Positions 46,027 through 55,574 of a stretch of DNA of 64,000 nucleotides are shown piece after piece (the first letter of the stretch is position 1; every line of letters starts with the position of its first letter). Under the pieces are notes generated by a model. That model was not told where the DNA came from, searched no databases, and saw nothing but the letters and a program-made list of their open reading frames with translations. Both the position numbers and the translations under genes were made by a program. Location: contig NZ_BMPF01000001.1 of assembly GCF_014647455.2 (NCBI RefSeq), positions 124,001-188,000 of the forward strand, in the 5' to 3' direction. The stretch is from Halarchaeum grantii (lineage in GTDB: Archaea > Halobacteriota > Halobacteria > Halobacteriales > Halobacteriaceae).

Positions 46027-46098
46027 ACCCAAGGGTACACGGCACCGCGCAAAAACGTAGTGTTCGCTGGTACGGTTCCACCCACGCGTAGTGAGTGA

Positions 46099-46107
46099 AT
46101 TTTAACC
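46099..46107 (+). promoter_or_regulatory. TATA-like element for aglF
   Basis: ATTTTAACC is centred about 28 bases upstream of the aglF ATG at 46131, consistent with a leaderless transcript and supporting that start. Confidence 0.55.
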
Positions 46108-46130
46108 TCCCCGCGTCCAAGTTCCTGCCT

Positions 46131-46841
46131 ATGCAAGCTGTCGTGCTCGCCGCGGGCGAAGGGACCCGCCTCCGGCCGCTGACCGAGGATAAACCGAAGG
46201 GACTCGTCGAGGTCGATGGCCGGCCGATCCTCACGCACTGCTTCGAGCGGCTCGCGGAGCTCGGCGCGGACGAACTCCTCGTCGTCATCGGCTACAAGAA
46301 AGAGCAGATAATCAGCCACTATGGCGACGCGTTCGAGGGGATTCCGATCACGTACGAGCACCAGCGCGAGGCGAACGGGCTCGCGCACGCCCTCCTCACG
46401 GTTGAGAACCACATTGATGGCGATTTCATGCTGATGCTTGGCGACAACGTATTCGCGGCGAACCTCGCGGACGTCGTTGACCGACAGCGCGAGAACCGTA
46501 CGGACGCCGCGTTCCTCGTCGAGGAGGTTGGGTGGGACGAGGCGGGCCGCTATGGTGTCTGCGTGACGAACGACTACGGCGAGATCACCGAGGTCGTCGA
46601 AAAGCCTGATGACCCCCCCTCGAATCTCGTAATGACGGGCTTCTACACGTTCAGCCCAGCGATCTTCCACGCGTGTCACCTCGTCCAGCCGTCAAACCGC
46701 GGCGAGTACGAGCTCAGCGAAGCGATCGATCTCTTGATCCGCTCTGGACGCACCATTGACGCCGTTCGCCTCGACGGCTGGCGCCTCGACATCGGCTACC
46801 CCGAGGACCGCGACGAGGCAGAGCATCGCCTCACCGAGTAG
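46131..46841 (+). CDS. aglF: UTP-glucose-1-phosphate uridylyltransferase AglF type
   Basis: 236 residues, a single nucleotidyltransferase domain: MQAVVLAAGEGTRLRPLTEDKPKGLVEV, the metal-site Asp in MLMLGDNVFAAN, VEKPDDPPSNLVMTGFYTFSP and RLDGWRLDIGYPEDRDEAE. In Haloferax AglF makes UDP-glucose that AglM oxidises to UDP-glucuronate. The same pair lies here in order, followed by aglB. It is cytoplasmic. Unlike the nucleotidyltransferase at the other end of the island, it has no hexapeptide-repeat domain. Confidence 0.9.
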   Translation: MQAVVLAAGEGTRLRPLTEDKPKGLVEVDGRPILTHCFERLAELGADELLVVIGYKKEQIISHYGDAFEGIPITYEHQREANGLAHALLTVENHIDGDFMLMLGDNVFAANLADVVDRQRENRTDAAFLVEEVGWDEAGRYGVCVTNDYGEITEVVEKPDDPPSNLVMTGFYTFSPAIFHACHLVQPSNRGEYELSEAIDLLIRSGRTIDAVRLDGWRLDIGYPEDRDEAEHRLTE

Positions 46842-47116: not shown

Positions 47117-48430
47117 ATGTATCTCTCCGTCATCGGTTCCGGTTACGTCGGCACCACTATCGCAGTGTGTTTCGCGGAACTCGGGCACGACGTGGTGAAT
47201 GTCGATATCGACCAGGAGACGGTAGAGACGCTGAACGGCGGTGAAGCCCCGATCCACGAGGACGGTCTCGCGGACCTTGTCGCCGAGCATGCCGGCCCCA
47301 ACGGGACAGGTCGACTCCGCGCGACGACAGACTACGAGGCGATCCTCGAAACGGAGGCGACGTTCCTCTGTCTGCCGACACCGCAGCGCGACGACGGGAG
47401 CATCGACCTCTCTATCATGCGGGCGGGCGCGGCGTCGCTCGGCGAGACGCTCGCGGCGAAGGACGACCGACACACCGTGATTGTGAAAAGCACGGTCATC
47501 CCGCGCTCGACGACGGACACCATCGCCCCGACAGTCGCGGACGCCGCGGGGAAGACGATCGGGGCCGATCTCGGCGTCGGGATGAACCCCGAGTTCCTTC
47601 GCGAAGGGAGCGCCGTCCGCGACTTCCTCAACCCGGACAAAGTCGTCCTCGGCGCGGACGATGAGCAGACGCGCGATGTAATGGCAGCTGTCTTCGAGCC
47701 GCTCGTAGAGCGCGCGGGCAACCCAGCGGTCGTTGAGACGGACACGAAGACGGCGGAGATGATCAAGTACGCGAACAACGGCTTCCTCGCGACAAAGATA
47801 TCACTGATCAACGATATCGGGAACGTGTGCAAGGAGTTCGGCATCGATGCCTACGAGGTCGCGGACGCCATTGGCCTTGACGACCGGATCGGCGAACAGT
47901 TCCTCCGCTCCGGACTCGGGTGGGGCGGGTCGTGCTTCCCGAAGGACACAAACGCGATCATCGCTGCGGCGAAGGCCGAAGGATACGACCCCACGATGCT
48001 GGAGGCGGCGGTCGAGGTGAACGAGCATCAACCGAAGCGCCTTCTCGAACTCCTTGACGCGCACGTCGACGTCGCGGGTAAACGCGTCGCGGTCCTCGGC
48101 CTCGCATTCAAGCCTGGCACCGACGACGTCCGAAACTCCCGAGCGGTGCCCGTCATCGAGAGGTTGGCTGCTCGCGGCGCGGAGATCGTCGCGTACGATC
48201 CGGTCGCAATGGAGAACATGCGGGCGCTCGACCCGGACGCGGACATCGCGTATGCGGACTCGGCGGCTGACGCGCTTGACAGGGCGAACGCGTGCGTCGT
48301 CGTCACGGACTGGGACGCGTTCGCAACGCTCGACGAGGAATTCGAGCGGATGGCCGAACAGGTGGTCGTCGACGGACGGCGAGTCGTTGAACCGCGCCGG
48401 GGAATGACGTACGAGGGGCTCACCTGGTAG
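47117..48430 (+). CDS. aglM: UDP-glucose 6-dehydrogenase AglM type
   Basis: 437 residues. The N-terminal Rossmann segment is MYLSVIGSGYVGTTIAVCFAELGHDVVNVDID. Further motifs are FLCLPTPQRDDGSIDLS, GMNPEFLREGSAVRDFLNPDKVVLG, TAEMIKYANNGFLATKISLINDIGNVC, and the catalytic Cys in SGLGWGGSCFPKDTNAI. The C-terminal domain has VLGLAFKPGTDDVRNSRAVPVI. It oxidises UDP-glucose to UDP-glucuronic acid with two NAD+, so the glycan made here probably contains hexuronic acid. The start was chosen to match family N-termini; ATGs at 47090 and 47105 are in frame. Confidence 0.93.
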   Translation: MYLSVIGSGYVGTTIAVCFAELGHDVVNVDIDQETVETLNGGEAPIHEDGLADLVAEHAGPNGTGRLRATTDYEAILETEATFLCLPTPQRDDGSIDLSIMRAGAASLGETLAAKDDRHTVIVKSTVIPRSTTDTIAPTVADAAGKTIGADLGVGMNPEFLREGSAVRDFLNPDKVVLGADDEQTRDVMAAVFEPLVERAGNPAVVETDTKTAEMIKYANNGFLATKISLINDIGNVCKEFGIDAYEVADAIGLDDRIGEQFLRSGLGWGGSCFPKDTNAIIAAAKAEGYDPTMLEAAVEVNEHQPKRLLELLDAHVDVAGKRVAVLGLAFKPGTDDVRNSRAVPVIERLAARGAEIVAYDPVAMENMRALDPDADIAYADSAADALDRANACVVVTDWDAFATLDEEFERMAEQVVVDGRRVVEPRRGMTYEGLTW

Positions 48431-48452: not shown

Positions 48453-48478
48453 CCTCACTTTCCGTGTCGTCAGACGTA

Positions 48479-51400
48479 ATGAGCGATGATAGTGAACAGT
48501 CCGGCGATCCCTCCATCGCCGGGCGTCCGGTCCTCGATATAGCGGCGGACTGGTATCACGTTCCCGTGATTGCCCTCCTCATAGCGTTCATGGCGTGGGT
48601 GCGTGCACAGTCCTGGCAGGCGTTCGTCCGGAACGGCGAGGTGTTCTTCGGCGGGAACGACCCGTGGTACCACTATCGGAGCACGATGTACGTCGTGCGT
48701 CACTGGCCGGCGACGATGCCGTTCGACCCGTGGACGCAGTTCCCGACGGGGATCAGCGTCGGCCAGTTCGGCACACTGCTCGACCAGTTGATGGCGACGG
48801 TCGCCCTACTACTCGGTCTCGGTAGCCCGAGTCAGCACACCGTCGCGATGACCGTGCTGTTCACGCCTGTCGTCGTCGGGGCTCTCGTCGTGATCCCGAC
48901 GTACTATCTCGGGAAGCGCCTCGCCGGCCGTTCGGCTGGCGTCATCGCGGCGCTCGTTCTCGCCGTCCTTCCCGGGATGTTCCTCCAGCGCAGCCTCGTC
49001 GGTACCGCCGACCACAACATCGCCGAACCGCTCTTTCAGGCGTCGGCGGTCGCCGTACTCCTCGTTGCCCTCCACGTCGCCAAGCGCGACCGCCCCGTCT
49101 GGGAGCAGGTACGCGCACGCGAGTGGGGCGCGCTGAAACCTGTCCTCGGCTGGAGCGCACTCGCCGGGATCGCGACCGCGCTCTACATGTGGGTGTGGCC
49201 GCCGGGCGTCCTCCTCGTCGGTATCGCCGGCGTCTTCTTCCTCCTGAAACTCGCGAGCAACCACTACAACGGTCGGAGCCCCGACCATCTCGCGTCCGTC
49301 GGCGCGACGAGCATGAGTGTCGCGGGCGTCCTCTTGCTCGTTCCCTTCGATACAATCGCGTTCTCACCGTCGCGTTTCTCCCTCCTCCAGCCGGTTGCGG
49401 CGCTCGGCGTCGCCGCCGCCTGTGTCTTCCTCGCGTGGCTCTCCCGGACCTTCGAGGCGCGCGACCTCGACCGCTCGCTCTACCCACTCTCCGTCCTCGG
49501 CGCCACCGTCGTCGGCGCGGGCGTCGTCTCCGTCGTCCTCCCTGACGTCTTCTCCATGGTCGCGTCGAACTTCATGCGCTTCGTCGGCTTCGACGCGAAC
49601 GCCGCCCAGCGAACCATCGGGGAGGCCCAGCCGTGGCTCGGGAGCCTCTCGCGTTACGGTGGCTCTCGCTTCGCGCTCTTCTTCAGCTCCTACGGCCTCG
49701 CGTTCTTCGCGATGCTCGCGGCGCTCGCGTGGCTCCTCTGGCGGCCGTTCTACGACAGCGATAGCGACCGCGAGCGGTGGTTCGCCGTCGTCGCGTTCGT
49801 CGGCACCACGGTCGTAATCGCGGTGCCCGGCCTCCTCCCGACGGTCGCGGGCAACGTCGGCCTCCCGCCGACGCTCACCGGCCTCGTGCTCGTCGGCGGC
49901 CTGCTGTTCGCGTCGCTCGTCCTCGGCGACCACGCGGCGGAGAAGTCGCTCGTCGTCGTCTGGACGCTCTTCCTCATCGCGGCGGCGTTCACGCAGGTGC
50001 GCTTCAACTACTACCTCGCGGTGCCGGTCGCCGTCCTCAGCGGCTACGCGGGGGCGAGCGTCCTCCACTCGGAGTACGTCGACCTCGGGTCGGCTCGCGA
50101 CGCCCTCCAAGACGTCGAGGCGACGCAGGTCGTCGCCGTCGTCGCCGTCCTCCTGTTGCTCGTCGCGCCGCTCACGATGTCCGTGACGCTCAGCACGCCG
50201 CAGGGGCAACTCCAGACGAGCACGGCGTCGCAGGTCGGCGCGTCCGCGAGCCCCGGGTCGGTCCTCGCGTGGAACCCGATGCTCCAGTGGATGCAGAACA
50301 ACACGCCCGAGGAGGGGAACCTCGGTGGCACCGGGAACGCGGACCAACTCGAGTACTACGGGACGTACCAGCAGACGAGCGATTACGACTATCCGGACGG
50401 GAGTTACGGCGTGATGAGCTGGTGGGACTACGGGCACTGGATCACGGTGCTCGGCGAGCGCATCCCGAACGCCAACCCGTTCCAGGGTGGCGCGACGTAC
50501 GCCGCGAACTACCTGCTCGCGCAGAACGAGACGACGGCGAACCAGATACTCGACTCGAGGGGCGACGCCAGCGAACGCACGCGCTACGTCGCAGTCGACT
50601 GGCAGATGGCGTCCGTCACCTCGAAGTTCTCCGCGCCGACGGTGTTCGCCGAGAACGTCTCCGCGTACGACTTCTACCACCCGCTCTATCAGGGGAACCG
50701 GTCGGCCGGCTACAGCGTCCGGACGTACGCGCACACGCAGAACTACTACGACTCGATGATGGTCCGGCTCTTCCGCTATCAGGGCTCGTCGATGAGCCCC
50801 AGCGGCTACGTCCTCGACTGGGACTCGACGGCTGGTGACGCCGGGCAGTTCTACGTCGCGGACAGCAGCACGCAGGTCGTCAAGCAGTTCAACTCGACCG
50901 AGGAAGCCCGCGAGTACGTCGCGAACGACTCGACGTCACAGCTCGGCGGCATCGGGCGCTACCCGAGCGAATACGTCCCCGCGCTCGAGCACTATCGGCT
51001 CGTCGGGCTGAGCGACCAGGCGATCTCCTACCAGCAGCGCCTCAGCGGCTCGTACTTCCAGGAGCTCCCCTACTGGGCGAAGCTCTACGAGCGCGTCCCC
51101 GGCGCGACGGTGCAGGGCACCGGCCCCGCGAACACCACCGTCACCGCGAGCGTGACGATGGAGGCGACGCAGGTCGGCCAGAACTTCACCTACACCCAGC
51201 GCGCACAGACCGGCCCCGACGGCGAGTTCACGATGACGCTCCCGTACTCGACGACCGGCTACGACGAGTACGGCCCGGAGAACGGCTACACGAACGTCAG
51301 CGTGCGCGCCGAGGGCCCCTACCAGTTCAACGCCGTCGAGGGCTCCGGGATGAACAACCAGACCTACTGGACGGACACGGCGAACGTCTCCGAGGGACAG

Positions 51401-51544
51401 GTGAACGGTGCGACCGACACCACGGTGCAGGTGTCGCTCGAACAGCTCACGCTCCAACCGCAGACCGACTCCGGGAACACGAGCGCGTCCCTCTCGGAAC
51501 CGTCCGCCGTGACGACGGTCGCGTCGACCGAGCGGGCGGGCTGA
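48479..51544 (+). CDS. aglB: Dolichyl-phosphooligosaccharide-protein glycotransferase AglB
   Basis: 1021 residues. It transfers the lipid-linked glycan to Asn in N-x-S/T sequons on the outer face of the membrane. The first loop carries FFGGNDPWYHYRSTMY (metal-binding Asp). A later loop has TADHNIAEPLFQ (catalytic Asp/Glu region). About 13 membrane helices follow, then the C-terminal domain with the diagnostic WWDYG at residues 648-652. The C-terminal beta domain (about 880-1021) is typical of haloarchaeal AglB. By eye the first third is less GC-rich than the rest, so the gene may be a recombination mosaic at the edge of the variable island. A DUF368 gene starts 7 bases after the stop. Confidence 0.96.
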   Translation: MSDDSEQSGDPSIAGRPVLDIAADWYHVPVIALLIAFMAWVRAQSWQAFVRNGEVFFGGNDPWYHYRSTMYVVRHWPATMPFDPWTQFPTGISVGQFGTLLDQLMATVALLLGLGSPSQHTVAMTVLFTPVVVGALVVIPTYYLGKRLAGRSAGVIAALVLAVLPGMFLQRSLVGTADHNIAEPLFQASAVAVLLVALHVAKRDRPVWEQVRAREWGALKPVLGWSALAGIATALYMWVWPPGVLLVGIAGVFFLLKLASNHYNGRSPDHLASVGATSMSVAGVLLLVPFDTIAFSPSRFSLLQPVAALGVAAACVFLAWLSRTFEARDLDRSLYPLSVLGATVVGAGVVSVVLPDVFSMVASNFMRFVGFDANAAQRTIGEAQPWLGSLSRYGGSRFALFFSSYGLAFFAMLAALAWLLWRPFYDSDSDRERWFAVVAFVGTTVVIAVPGLLPTVAGNVGLPPTLTGLVLVGGLLFASLVLGDHAAEKSLVVVWTLFLIAAAFTQVRFNYYLAVPVAVLSGYAGASVLHSEYVDLGSARDALQDVEATQVVAVVAVLLLLVAPLTMSVTLSTPQGQLQTSTASQVGASASPGSVLAWNPMLQWMQNNTPEEGNLGGTGNADQLEYYGTYQQTSDYDYPDGSYGVMSWWDYGHWITVLGERIPNANPFQGGATYAANYLLAQNETTANQILDSRGDASERTRYVAVDWQMASVTSKFSAPTVFAENVSAYDFYHPLYQGNRSAGYSVRTYAHTQNYYDSMMVRLFRYQGSSMSPSGYVLDWDSTAGDAGQFYVADSSTQVVKQFNSTEEAREYVANDSTSQLGGIGRYPSEYVPALEHYRLVGLSDQAISYQQRLSGSYFQELPYWAKLYERVPGATVQGTGPANTTVTASVTMEATQVGQNFTYTQRAQTGPDGEFTMTLPYSTTGYDEYGPENGYTNVSVRAEGPYQFNAVEGSGMNNQTYWTDTANVSEGQVNGATDTTVQVSLEQLTLQPQTDSGNTSASLSEPSAVTTVASTERAG

Positions 51545-51551
51545 TCCCGCG

Positions 51552-52490
51552 ATGAGTGTCCGCGAGTGGCTCGGCGTCTATCTGCGCGGCGCCGCGATGG
51601 GTGCGGCGGACGCCGTTCCCGGCGTCTCCGGCGGGACGATCGCGCTCATCACGGGCATCTACGGGCGCCTCGTCGCCGCCATCGCGAGCCTCGACCCGCG
51701 CGCGGCGCTCGCGCTCCTCGGCCCCGCCGTCCGCTCGCCCTTTGACGCCGACGCGCGCGCGACCGTCCGCGACGAACTCGTCCGCATGGAGGTCCCCTTC
51801 CTCGTCGTGCTCGGTGTCGGCCTCCTCTCCGCAGTCATCACCGTCGCGAACCTCGTGCAGTACTTCCTCGACGCGCATCCGGTCGCGACGTACGCCTTCT
51901 TCTTCGGGCTCGTCCTCGCGTCCGTGCTCGTGCTCGCCGGTGAGGTGAACCTCGGGACGCCGCGCCGCGTCGCCGTCGCCGCCGGCGGGTTCGTGCTCGC
52001 GTTCCTCGCGAGCGGCCCCGCGCAGAGCCAGCTCCCGACGAACCCCCTCGTGACCTTCCTCGTCGGCGCGCTCGCGATCTGTGCGATGGTTCTCCCCGGC
52101 GTCTCGGGCTCGCTCATCCTCCTGACGCTCGGGCAGTACGACCGGATGACGGGCGCCGTCCACGGGACGACCGCCGCCGTCCTCGCGGGCGACGTGGGCG
52201 CGGCGACCGCCGCCGGGGCGACGCTCGTCGTCTTCTCGCTCGGCGCGTTCGTCGGCCTCCTGACGTTCGCGCGCGTCGTCGCGTGGGCGCTCGAGCAGTA
52301 TCACGCGGCGACGCTGACGTTCCTCGTCGCGCTGATGGCGGGCGCGCTGCGTGCGCCGATCCGCCTCTCGTTCGCCGACGTCGGGACGCTCGACGCCGGC
52401 GTCGCGCTCGCCTTCCTCCTGCCGGCGCTCGTCGGTGTCGCGCTCATCGTCGCGCTCGAACGCGTCGGCGGCGGCGTCGTCCTCGACTGA
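51552..52490 (+). CDS. DUF368 membrane protein, candidate polyprenyl-phosphate translocase
   Basis: 312 residues with about 8-9 membrane segments. The two inverted-repeat signatures of DUF368 are present: GAADAVPGVSGGTIALITGIYGRL (residues about 17-40) and AICAMVLPGVSGSLILLTLGQYDRM (about 175-199). DUF368 proteins in bacteria (PopT) were recently shown to recycle undecaprenyl phosphate across the membrane. The start lies 7 bases after the aglB stop, so the two are co-transcribed. This suggests that it returns dolichyl phosphate released by AglB to the inner face; that substrate is an inference. Confidence 0.88.
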   Translation: MSVREWLGVYLRGAAMGAADAVPGVSGGTIALITGIYGRLVAAIASLDPRAALALLGPAVRSPFDADARATVRDELVRMEVPFLVVLGVGLLSAVITVANLVQYFLDAHPVATYAFFFGLVLASVLVLAGEVNLGTPRRVAVAAGGFVLAFLASGPAQSQLPTNPLVTFLVGALAICAMVLPGVSGSLILLTLGQYDRMTGAVHGTTAAVLAGDVGAATAAGATLVVFSLGAFVGLLTFARVVAWALEQYHAATLTFLVALMAGALRAPIRLSFADVGTLDAGVALAFLLPALVGVALIVALERVGGGVVLD

Positions 52491-52538: not shown

Positions 52539-52907
52539 ATGACCGAATTAGAGCAGACTCCCGTCTCGCGCGCGACCGTCGCGGACGTCGCCGCCGACAC
52601 CGACCTCTCCGCCGATGCGCTCCGGGCGGCGCTCGGCGACCTCCAGTCGCTCGCGAGCGACTCGCCCGGCGTCGCGAGCGTCGACGACCTCGTCTACGAG
52701 TGGCGGACGGCGTTCCGCGACGACCCGCTCGTCGAGCGCACTCCCGACGCCTACCACCTCGCGGTGCCCGCGCGCGTCTGGGCGGACTTCGCGGAGCGCC
52801 TCGATTGGAGCGACGCCGAGCGCGACGCCGTCGAGGCGGTCCACACCGCGGCGTTCGCCCCGGAACACGACGACACCGCGGCGCGGCCGCTGGTGCTGGG
52901 TCGATAG
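52539..52907 (+). CDS. Conserved haloarchaeal protein, uncharacterised
   Basis: 122 residues, acidic and soluble. The N-terminal part, VSRATVADVAADTDLSADALRAALGDLQSL, resembles a helix-turn-helix or a small helical bundle. The rest (YEWRTAFRDDPLVERTPDAYHLAVPARVWADFAERL) contains aromatic residues that look structural. No catalytic motif was recognised. The start follows a 48-base gap after the DUF368 gene, so it could be the last gene of the aglB transcript. It converges with the zinc-ribbon gene. Confidence 0.65.
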   Translation: MTELEQTPVSRATVADVAADTDLSADALRAALGDLQSLASDSPGVASVDDLVYEWRTAFRDDPLVERTPDAYHLAVPARVWADFAERLDWSDAERDAVEAVHTAAFAPEHDDTAARPLVLGR

Positions 52908-53258: not shown

Positions 53259-54431
53259 CTACCGACGGAGGTCGTAGAGCGTCCGGAAGACGGTCGGGGA
53301 GAACCGGCGCTCGACGCGGCTCGGCGAGCGCCCCTTTCCGGCCTGCTCGGTCGCTTGGACGCGTTCGACGACGCCGACCTCCGCCAGCTCGTAGAGGTAG
53401 CGCTTGATCGTTCCCTGCGAGAGGTCGACGTCCTGGTCGGCCGCGATGGCCTCCGTCGTCGCGGAGACCGAGCGGCGCTCCTCACGGTCGAGGTCAACGA
53501 GCGCCCGCAACACGCGCTGTTTGTTCGCCGAGAGCGCGAGCACCGTCCCGAGCGAGACGGCGTCGTGTGGGACCTCCGCGATGGCGGCGTCGACGTCGGC
53601 GTCGGTGATGCGACCGCGATCCGCCTCCTCGGCGCGGCAGGCGGCGACGAAGAGCGCCGCGAGCGCGTCGTGGGCGTTCCCGTCCGCCCAGTCCGCGATT
53701 CGGCTGGCGAGCGCGTGGTCAAACGCTTGGCGCGCCAGCCCGTTCGACGCGCGCGTCATCAGTACGTCGATGAGAACCCGGCGCTGGTAGCGGCCGATAT
53801 CGATGTCGCGTGCGGTGTAGTCGGAGAGCGCGCCGTCGGCCGGGGCGGCCCGGCCGACGGCGAGCCAACTGGCGTTGTTCGGGAGCCCCGAGAGCCACTC
53901 GACGAGGGCGTCGTCCGCGACGCCGGGAGCGTCGACGTGGTCGACGGCGACGACGGCGCCCGCCCGCGAGCCGCCGAGGGCGTCGTGAAGTCGCCGCTGG
54001 ATCTCCTGAGTACCGACACCGTGCTCGGGTACCGACTCCTCGACGACGGCGTCGAGCACGCGGTGGTAGAAGGCGAACTCGCTCGTTGTCTCACGGAGGT
54101 CGACGTAGACGAACCACGGGGTCCGCGACGAGCGCGCCCGCGTGGTCGTGTAGATGGCTTCGCGGGACTGTGCGGAGAAGCGCTCGAGGTGGTCGAAGAG
54201 CGACGTGACGACGGCGCTCTTCCCGGCGCCGAAGGGGCCGTGCACGTACGCGTTCGGCGGGAGCGTCCCGTCGAAGACGGGGTCGATGTGGTCGAGCAGT
54301 CGCTCGACGACCGGTCCGCGACCCGCGGGTTCCTCGATGTGAGCAACGGGTGAGAGCACCTCGTAGTCGCGGACGAGCCGGCGCGAGTCCGCCTCCTGCC
54401 GTCGTCGCTGTATCCTCGCGTCGATGTTCAT
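53259..54431 (-). CDS. Divergent Orc1/Cdc6-like AAA+ ATPase
   Basis: 390 residues from the ATG at 54429-54431. The N-terminal basic segment (NIDARIQRRRQEADSRRL) is followed by an AAA+ domain with Walker A GPFGAGKS at residues about 70-77. The Walker B strand reads AVVAVDHVD, lacking the DE pair of canonical Orc1/Cdc6. A winged helix occupies about 285-390 (KQRVLRALVDLDREERRSVS). The layout is that of archaeal initiator-type proteins, but the degenerate Walker B makes ATPase activity and initiator function doubtful. No ORB-like repeats were seen in the short upstream region. It may instead be a chromosome-borne paralogue with another DNA role. Confidence 0.8.
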   Translation of the reverse strand: MNIDARIQRRRQEADSRRLVRDYEVLSPVAHIEEPAGRGPVVERLLDHIDPVFDGTLPPNAYVHGPFGAGKSAVVTSLFDHLERFSAQSREAIYTTTRARSSRTPWFVYVDLRETTSEFAFYHRVLDAVVEESVPEHGVGTQEIQRRLHDALGGSRAGAVVAVDHVDAPGVADDALVEWLSGLPNNASWLAVGRAAPADGALSDYTARDIDIGRYQRRVLIDVLMTRASNGLARQAFDHALASRIADWADGNAHDALAALFVAACRAEEADRGRITDADVDAAIAEVPHDAVSLGTVLALSANKQRVLRALVDLDREERRSVSATTEAIAADQDVDLSQGTIKRYLYELAEVGVVERVQATEQAGKGRSPSRVERRFSPTVFRTLYDLRR

Positions 54432-54494
54432 TGCGTGGGGGATAGTCGTTGTTTGGTATCTGTTCACGTCGTGAAAAGCCGACGGTTCGAAACG

Positions 54495-55574
54495 TCAGAG
54501 GCCGAGATAGCCGGCGTTCGGCAGGACACCCAGCAGGTAGAGGACGCCGATGATGAACATCATGAACGCGATCGCCATCGCGGGCGGGTCCACGTGCGTG
54601 CCGGAGTGCGAGTAGAAGATGCGCTGGAGGGCCTCGCCGGAGAGGCCGCTGAGCGCGCCGACGACGCCTGCTGCGACGATGGCGGCGACCGGACTGCCGA
54701 ACATCGACATCGCGAGCACCGCACCGACGGAGCCGAGGAGGGTGATGTGGTGGGTGACCGGGATCTTCTCGACGCCCAAGTTGAGGAAGAGCAGGCTCAT
54801 CGCGGAGATGGCGTAGCCGAGGAAGATACTCCCCGTCTTGAGCCAGATGTAGCCGCCGAGGACGCCCCCGACGAGACCGATGGCGGTGACGCCCACCCAC
54901 TTGTACTGGTGGGGGAGCCACGGCTCGACGGCGAGTCGGCCGGCGTTCCCCGCGTGGACGTCACCGTCCTGATCGCGGGTTTCCTCGCGCTCGAACGGCC
55001 CCATGTCGAGGTAGCCGTCGCCCGCTGGCTTCCCGATGAGCGGGTAGCCGAAGACGAGTCGGGCGATCATCGCGGTGAGGAAGACGGAGAGCGCGATGCC
55101 GTCCGTCGGAAGGCCGAGGCCGCCGGAGAGCTTCGCGATGAGCATCCCGAGCACGCCGAAGATCGCGCCGACGGCGAGGATGTCCGGCTTCGTGCCGTAG
55201 GCTTCCGTGATGTTCTTTCCGAGGTGGTAGTCCCAGCCGGACGGGTTCATCTCGGGGTACTTCTTCCCGACGTACGCGGAGGCGGCGACCCCGGCCGCGA
55301 ACGAGATGTGGGGGCCGGTGACCGCGCCGAAGCCGATGACGCCGGTGACGCCGACGGCGAGTTCACCGTTCGGAACGCTGGGGAGTTCGCCGACCTCGCT
55401 CTGTAGGATGGCGAGCCCCTCGCCGAGGAAGACGACGAACCCCGTGAAGACGAACGAGGGGAGCGCGCCGAGCGCGGCGCCGAGCGCCCCGCCGGCGAGC
55501 GCGGCGATGACGAGCACGAGGAACGCGCCGGGCTCCATCCCGATGACGGGGATGGTCTGGAGCGGGAGGAACAT
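54495..55574 (-). CDS. Polytopic membrane protein linked to glycerol kinase (putative glycerol transport)
   Basis: 359 residues with about 8 membrane helices: FLVLVIAALAGGALGAALGALPSFVFTGFVVFLGEGLAIL, then GVTGVIGFGAVTGPHISFAAGVAASAYVGKKYP, and later VGVTAIGLVGGVLGGYIWLKTGSIFLGYAISAMSLLFLNLG. A cytoplasmic-type loop with many charged residues separates the halves. It lies 3 bases downstream of glpK on the same strand. I recall homologues next to glpK in other haloarchaea, so glycerol uptake is the likely role. It is not an MIP aquaglyceroporin (no NPA motifs). Confidence 0.72.
   Translation of the reverse strand: MFLPLQTIPVIGMEPGAFLVLVIAALAGGALGAALGALPSFVFTGFVVFLGEGLAILQSEVGELPSVPNGELAVGVTGVIGFGAVTGPHISFAAGVAASAYVGKKYPEMNPSGWDYHLGKNITEAYGTKPDILAVGAIFGVLGMLIAKLSGGLGLPTDGIALSVFLTAMIARLVFGYPLIGKPAGDGYLDMGPFEREETRDQDGDVHAGNAGRLAVEPWLPHQYKWVGVTAIGLVGGVLGGYIWLKTGSIFLGYAISAMSLLFLNLGVEKIPVTHHITLLGSVGAVLAMSMFGSPVAAIVAAGVVGALSGLSGEALQRIFYSHSGTHVDPPAMAIAFMMFIIGVLYLLGVLPNAGYLGL

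Follow-up and report, generated by a model that had tools for sequence, protein, structure and literature searches.

Dolichol phosphate is the lipid on which Haloferax builds its N-glycans; once these have been flipped outward, AglB transfers them to protein (PMC3871713). AglR and Agl15 have been put forward as flippases for the outward step (PMC3871713), and apart from AglR the mechanism of outward translocation has been described as unknown (PMC4335974). On chemical grounds, transfer by AglB should leave dolichyl phosphate in the outer leaflet, each N-glycan stranding one carrier molecule on the wrong side of the membrane. No established protein for the return of this carrier in archaea was found. 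The question raised by the locus analyzed here is whether such a protein is encoded next to AglB itself. The window, a stretch of 64,000 nucleotides from Halarchaeum grantii, contains a gene for a DUF368 protein immediately downstream of aglB, and a preliminary description of the locus, made from the sequence alone, proposed it as a strong candidate for the missing step.

DUF368 proteins of bacteria bring undecaprenyl phosphate (C55-P) back inside; in bacteria lacking them, C55-P builds up in the outer leaflet under alkaline conditions, and cells expressing them resist an antibiotic that binds undecaprenyl phosphate at the surface (PMC9876793). The activity of the family is also partly in print for archaea: HVO_RS12060, the DUF368 protein of H. 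volcanii, gives at least partial complementation of a DUF368 mutant of V. cholerae (PMC9876793).

Genomic context of the DUF368 gene

The window carries aglF, aglM, aglB and the DUF368 gene in this order on the forward strand (Table 1). On its profile match and domain content, the gene upstream of DUF368 is certainly aglB, and the reported distance of 7 bases between the two genes was borne out. The spacer, between the aglB stop codon (TGA, 51542-51544) and the ATG start of the DUF368 gene, leaves scant room for a separate promoter. The aglB reading frame is also open from a GTG at 48464, the NF041297 match of aglM begins at residue 48 of its longest open reading frame (ORF), and the aglF coordinates are those of the longest ORF, in which the NF041313 match begins at residue 13.

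Table 1. Features of the aglB-DUF368 locus in the window
Feature	Coordinates	Strand	Details
aglF, UTP-glucose-1-phosphate uridylyltransferase	46095..46841	+	NF041313, 438 bits, above cut-off
aglM, UDP-glucose 6-dehydrogenase of the agl pathway	47117..48430	+	NF041297, 755 bits, above cut-off
aglB, archaeal oligosaccharyltransferase	48479..51544	+	TIGR04154, 911 bits; STT3, AglB_core-like and AglB_L1
7-nt spacer, aglB stop to DUF368 ATG	51545..51551	+	sequence
DUF368/PopT-family membrane protein; proposed dolichyl-phosphate recycling translocase	51552..52490	+	312 aa; PF04018; pLDDT 92
First signature motif PGVSGGT, residues 23-29	51618..51638	+	helix break of hairpin 1
Second signature motif LPGVSGS, residues 181-187	52092..52112	+	internal repeat of first motif

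The ORF that follows DUF368, at 52539, was considered as a further member of the conserved unit and rejected, being present in only 1 of 59 genus representatives besides the window's own genome. Close downstream lies a gene for an Orc1/Cdc6-like AAA protein (53259-54464, reverse strand), relatives of which are found near aglB in 16 of 59 genera for no obvious reason. Between this gene and a glycerol kinase-like ORF, the reverse strand encodes an apparent membrane protein of 358 aa (54495-55571) without a match in Pfam or NCBIfam.

Identity and predicted structure of the DUF368 protein

PF04018, the DUF368 profile, is now described as undecaprenyl phosphate translocase-like. The window protein matches it with 214.7 bits (cut-off 26; E = 2e-63) over profile positions 1-229 of 246, and no other PF04018 gene occurs in the 3.02-Mb assembly. 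The NCBIfam models are narrower: NF052564 (VCA0040-type polyprenyl-phosphate transporter) gave 196 bits (E = 8e-58) and NF052563 (bacterial PopT) 89 bits, both under the equivalog cut-off of 400. Since these cut-offs were set for groups of bacterial orthologues, the scores lower any claim of orthology while leaving PF04018 family membership untouched. By profile comparison the protein is a member of the DUF368 family, and it is not called an orthologue of any particular bacterial protein. Pfam returned PF04018 only and NCBIfam the PopT models only, with no match to PF09335 (VTT) or UptA.

The protein is a polytopic membrane protein with an internal repeat, and the family signature occurs in it twice. 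In an alignment of 68 archaeal and bacterial sequences, P23, G24, V25, S26, G27 and T29 of the first motif and L181, P182, G183, S185 and G186 of the second are invariant, and the N- and C-terminal halves of the protein align with each other around the PGVSG motifs (E = 1e-4). The AlphaFold2 model, computed solely from sequences of the window and of related loci, is all-helical (mean pLDDT, 92; pTM, 0.85), and both motifs coincide with helix breaks, so that the twin PGVSG regions may be read as a pair of re-entrant hairpins. A sequence search of the PDB found no relative, and Foldseek of the model against the PDB gave nothing at an E value of <0.001, with uniformly low TM-scores, indicating that a solved structure of this fold is not available. 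Family membership, the two-motif architecture and the confidently predicted helical model fit a PopT-type polyprenyl-phosphate translocase.

Conservation of the aglB linkage in Halobacteria

A total of 145 halobacterial genomes were searched with PF04018 and TIGR04154, and the positions of the matches were compared. DUF368 is present in 144 genomes and an AglB-like match in all 145 (144 above the cut-off). The DUF368 gene lies ≤1 kb 3' of aglB in 95/145 genomes, always downstream and co-directional, and five further genomes have the same arrangement at ≤3.2 kb, giving 100/145. About 1.5e-4 per genome would be expected by chance for a randomly placed gene; the adjacency far exceeds this. Linked copies occur in 9 of 10 family groups. 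The same linkage was found in independent named genomes: Haladaptatus salinisoli, Haloglomus irregulare, Halolamina salifodinae, two Halorubrum, Halorhabdus amylolytica and Halostagnicola sp. A56, as well as in four MAGs.

Everything encoded within 7 kb of aglB was also clustered and ranked, using one genome for each of the 59 genera. DUF368 is the most conserved neighbor, found in 40 genera and co-directional in all 40. A divergent glycosyltransferase cluster ranks second (32 genera); it is taken to be AglG-type, as NF041394 matches its counterpart next to aglB at other loci. Among 39 genera, the distance between the aglB stop and the DUF368 start is ≤20 nt in 19, and in 10 the two abut or overlap; an operon is probable. 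The preliminary description had proposed synteny across haloarchaea as a check and counted a lack of conserved adjacency among the refuting findings; the comparison instead showed the linkage to be strongly conserved and co-directional, as in an agl N-glycosylation cluster, by genome as well as by genus. No earlier report of aglB-DUF368 synteny was found in the open-licence literature, and prior mention elsewhere is possible. That DUF368 is of importance to Halobacteria had already been published, together with a general pointer to dolichol phosphate. The synteny places this known family in a new setting that is strongly conserved.

Unlinked copies and exceptional genomes

The linkage is absent in 45/145 genomes, mostly because these carry a different DUF368 lineage. 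A phylogeny of 120 DUF368 proteins groups most unlinked copies in a single supported clade (28 rows; SH-aLRT, 97), mainly from two family groups (f3 and f2). None of its 28 members is linked to aglB, versus 65 of 72 other haloarchaeal copies. Loss of adjacency is thus mainly replacement by, or retention of, this second lineage. Both placements of the clade, nested among the linked copies or sister to all of them, are compatible with the AU test (p = 0.29). Some genomes, e.g., G143 and G091, have one linked copy plus one copy of the unlinked clade. Most of the neighbors sampled around the clade are housekeeping genes (MutS-like, M20 peptidase, thermosome), and a GT2 glycosyltransferase is also among them. 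Three of the seven remaining unlinked copies, all from one genus, adjoin aglM instead.

Two genomes each contain, or appear to contain, one partner only. G021, a genome of 1.9 Mb, has aglB (locus L193) without DUF368 and constitutes a natural knockout; it also encodes DedA-fold proteins, one with a weak match to the UptA profile. The complete genome G118 (family f3, genus g8; locus L076) has kept a DUF368 gene of the unlinked clade, with no match to STT3 (PF02516) and only a weak, partial match to TIGR04154, suggesting an apparent loss of canonical AglB. Neither protein therefore strictly requires the other, and the coupling is not absolute.

DUF368 outside Halobacteria

Adjacency to STT3 was found in none of 28 DUF368-bearing genomes outside the class; in three genomes of one family the two genes are 13 to 14 kb apart. 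At six non-halobacterial loci of the same phylum (L122, L126, L129, L133, L134 and L140), DUF368 adjoins, within a conserved block, the gene for a divergent NAD-dependent sugar-nucleotide epimerase, which hints again at a role connected with glycans. Relatives also occur in Methanobrevibacter, other methanogen MAGs and one Thermoplasmata MAG (L223, L228, L250 and L271), and none of these four loci has an aglB match to the window protein.

Proposed function and alternatives

The best explanation is probably that the window protein is a PopT/DUF368 polyprenyl-phosphate translocase by which the dolichyl phosphate that AglB releases is brought back to the inner leaflet. The protein would reside in the cytoplasmic membrane, its gene probably being cotranscribed with aglB, and the arrangement in many genera favors translational coupling. 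At the outer face, AglB would move the glycan from dolichyl phosphate to asparagine, and the emptied carrier, free dolichyl phosphate, would stay behind in the outer leaflet. Carried back by the DUF368 protein, it would be recharged by AglJ-type glycosyltransferases at the inner leaflet. Dolichyl phosphate would accordingly be the substrate, transport in archaea would be inward, and N-glycosylation, including that of the S-layer, would depend on DUF368. A stronger version, in which the aglB-linked protein is a dedicated partner of AglB and the first such recycler in archaea, with the unlinked lineage having taken over in several lineages, is possible, with the balance tipping slightly against it.

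A broader form of the same explanation, rather than a strict alternative, is that DUF368 acts as a general polyprenyl-phosphate translocase for every dolichyl-phosphate pathway (N-glycans, the AglD/AglS mannose route and exopolysaccharide), its linkage merely reflecting the position of AglB as the largest consumer. The carrier on which the bacterial homologues act is a shared one (PMC9876793), G118 keeps DUF368 despite having no STT3 match, and many genomes have the unlinked clade in place of the linked one. Such breadth fits less well with a linkage that is the tightest and most conserved among aglB neighbors, and we regard it as a real but lesser possibility. DedA-fold (PF09335) proteins are encoded in 145/145 halobacterial genomes, and a route through DUF368 only is therefore unproven. 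The preliminary description needs tempering on this point, as DUF368 is not the sole possible recycler. DedA-fold proteins could be the main recyclers, with DUF368 active only under alkaline or sodium-rich conditions, and in bacteria the two families are indeed conditional and partly redundant (PMC9876793). This is unlikely, however, as the UptA equivalog cut-off was reached in 0/145 genomes, and haloarchaea live permanently in high sodium, where bacterial DUF368 matters. In addition, one DedA-fold protein of the window's genome is much closer to E. coli YdjX than to DedA, and the second match is so weak as to be barely recognizable. A putative phospholipid-flippase subfamily of DedA-fold proteins has been described (PMC10127716). 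YdjX presumably belongs to this subfamily, and the better match in the window's genome is YdjX/TVP38-like.

Two further readings accept the linkage and explain it differently. DUF368 might move glycan-charged dolichyl phosphate outward to AglB instead of recycling the empty carrier, which would predict the same linkage and would address an outward step for which AglR is the exception to an unknown mechanism (PMC4335974). Nevertheless, the phenotype measured for the family is accumulation of the uncharged carrier at the surface (PMC9876793), and AglR and Agl15 have already been proposed for outward flipping (PMC3871713), making a forward flippase very improbable. Even less credence is given to historical hitchhiking of two genes with no shared function. 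Some other neighbors of aglB, the glp genes and the Cdc6-like gene, do recur with no obvious link, in as many as 18 of 59 genera, but such cases are less numerous and lie mainly on the opposite strand, whereas DUF368 shares the direction of aglB in every case, its start codon often abutting or overlapping the aglB stop, across its 40 genera and nine families. Return of the empty carrier by DUF368, the earlier interpretation, is supported by the present analysis within the limits given above.

For the step still missing from archaeal protein glycosylation, recycling of the carrier, the aglB-linked DUF368 is the best candidate. As a conserved unit with aglB, it is directly testable in genetically tractable haloarchaea, for which aglB deletion strains exist for comparison, and it bears on how the return of polyprenyl phosphates is solved beyond bacteria.

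Comparison with known systems

The closest known counterparts are the bacterial PopT/DUF368 proteins (VCA0040 of V. cholerae and SAOUHSC_00846 of S. aureus; PF04018, COG2035). The window protein belongs to the same Pfam family, matching nearly the whole profile, and has the twin PGVSG motifs in common with them. Its scores, however, are under the NCBIfam equivalog cut-offs, and its host is an archaeon without peptidoglycan, in which the expected carrier is dolichyl phosphate. Furthermore, the gene is encoded with an oligosaccharyltransferase, aglB, and not with cell wall genes. The UptA/COG0586 DedA undecaprenyl-phosphate flippases have the same proposed task, recycling of polyprenyl-phosphate carriers, but belong to a different family (PF09335), and no haloarchaeal protein surveyed reached the UptA cut-off. 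AglR and Agl15 of Haloferax volcanii are proposed to translocate dolichyl-phosphate species across the membrane in the same pathway (PMC3871713). Their proposed role is unrelated, namely, outward movement of the charged carrier, a distinction drawn solely from descriptions in the literature; return of the empty carrier would be the role of the DUF368 protein encoded beside AglB.
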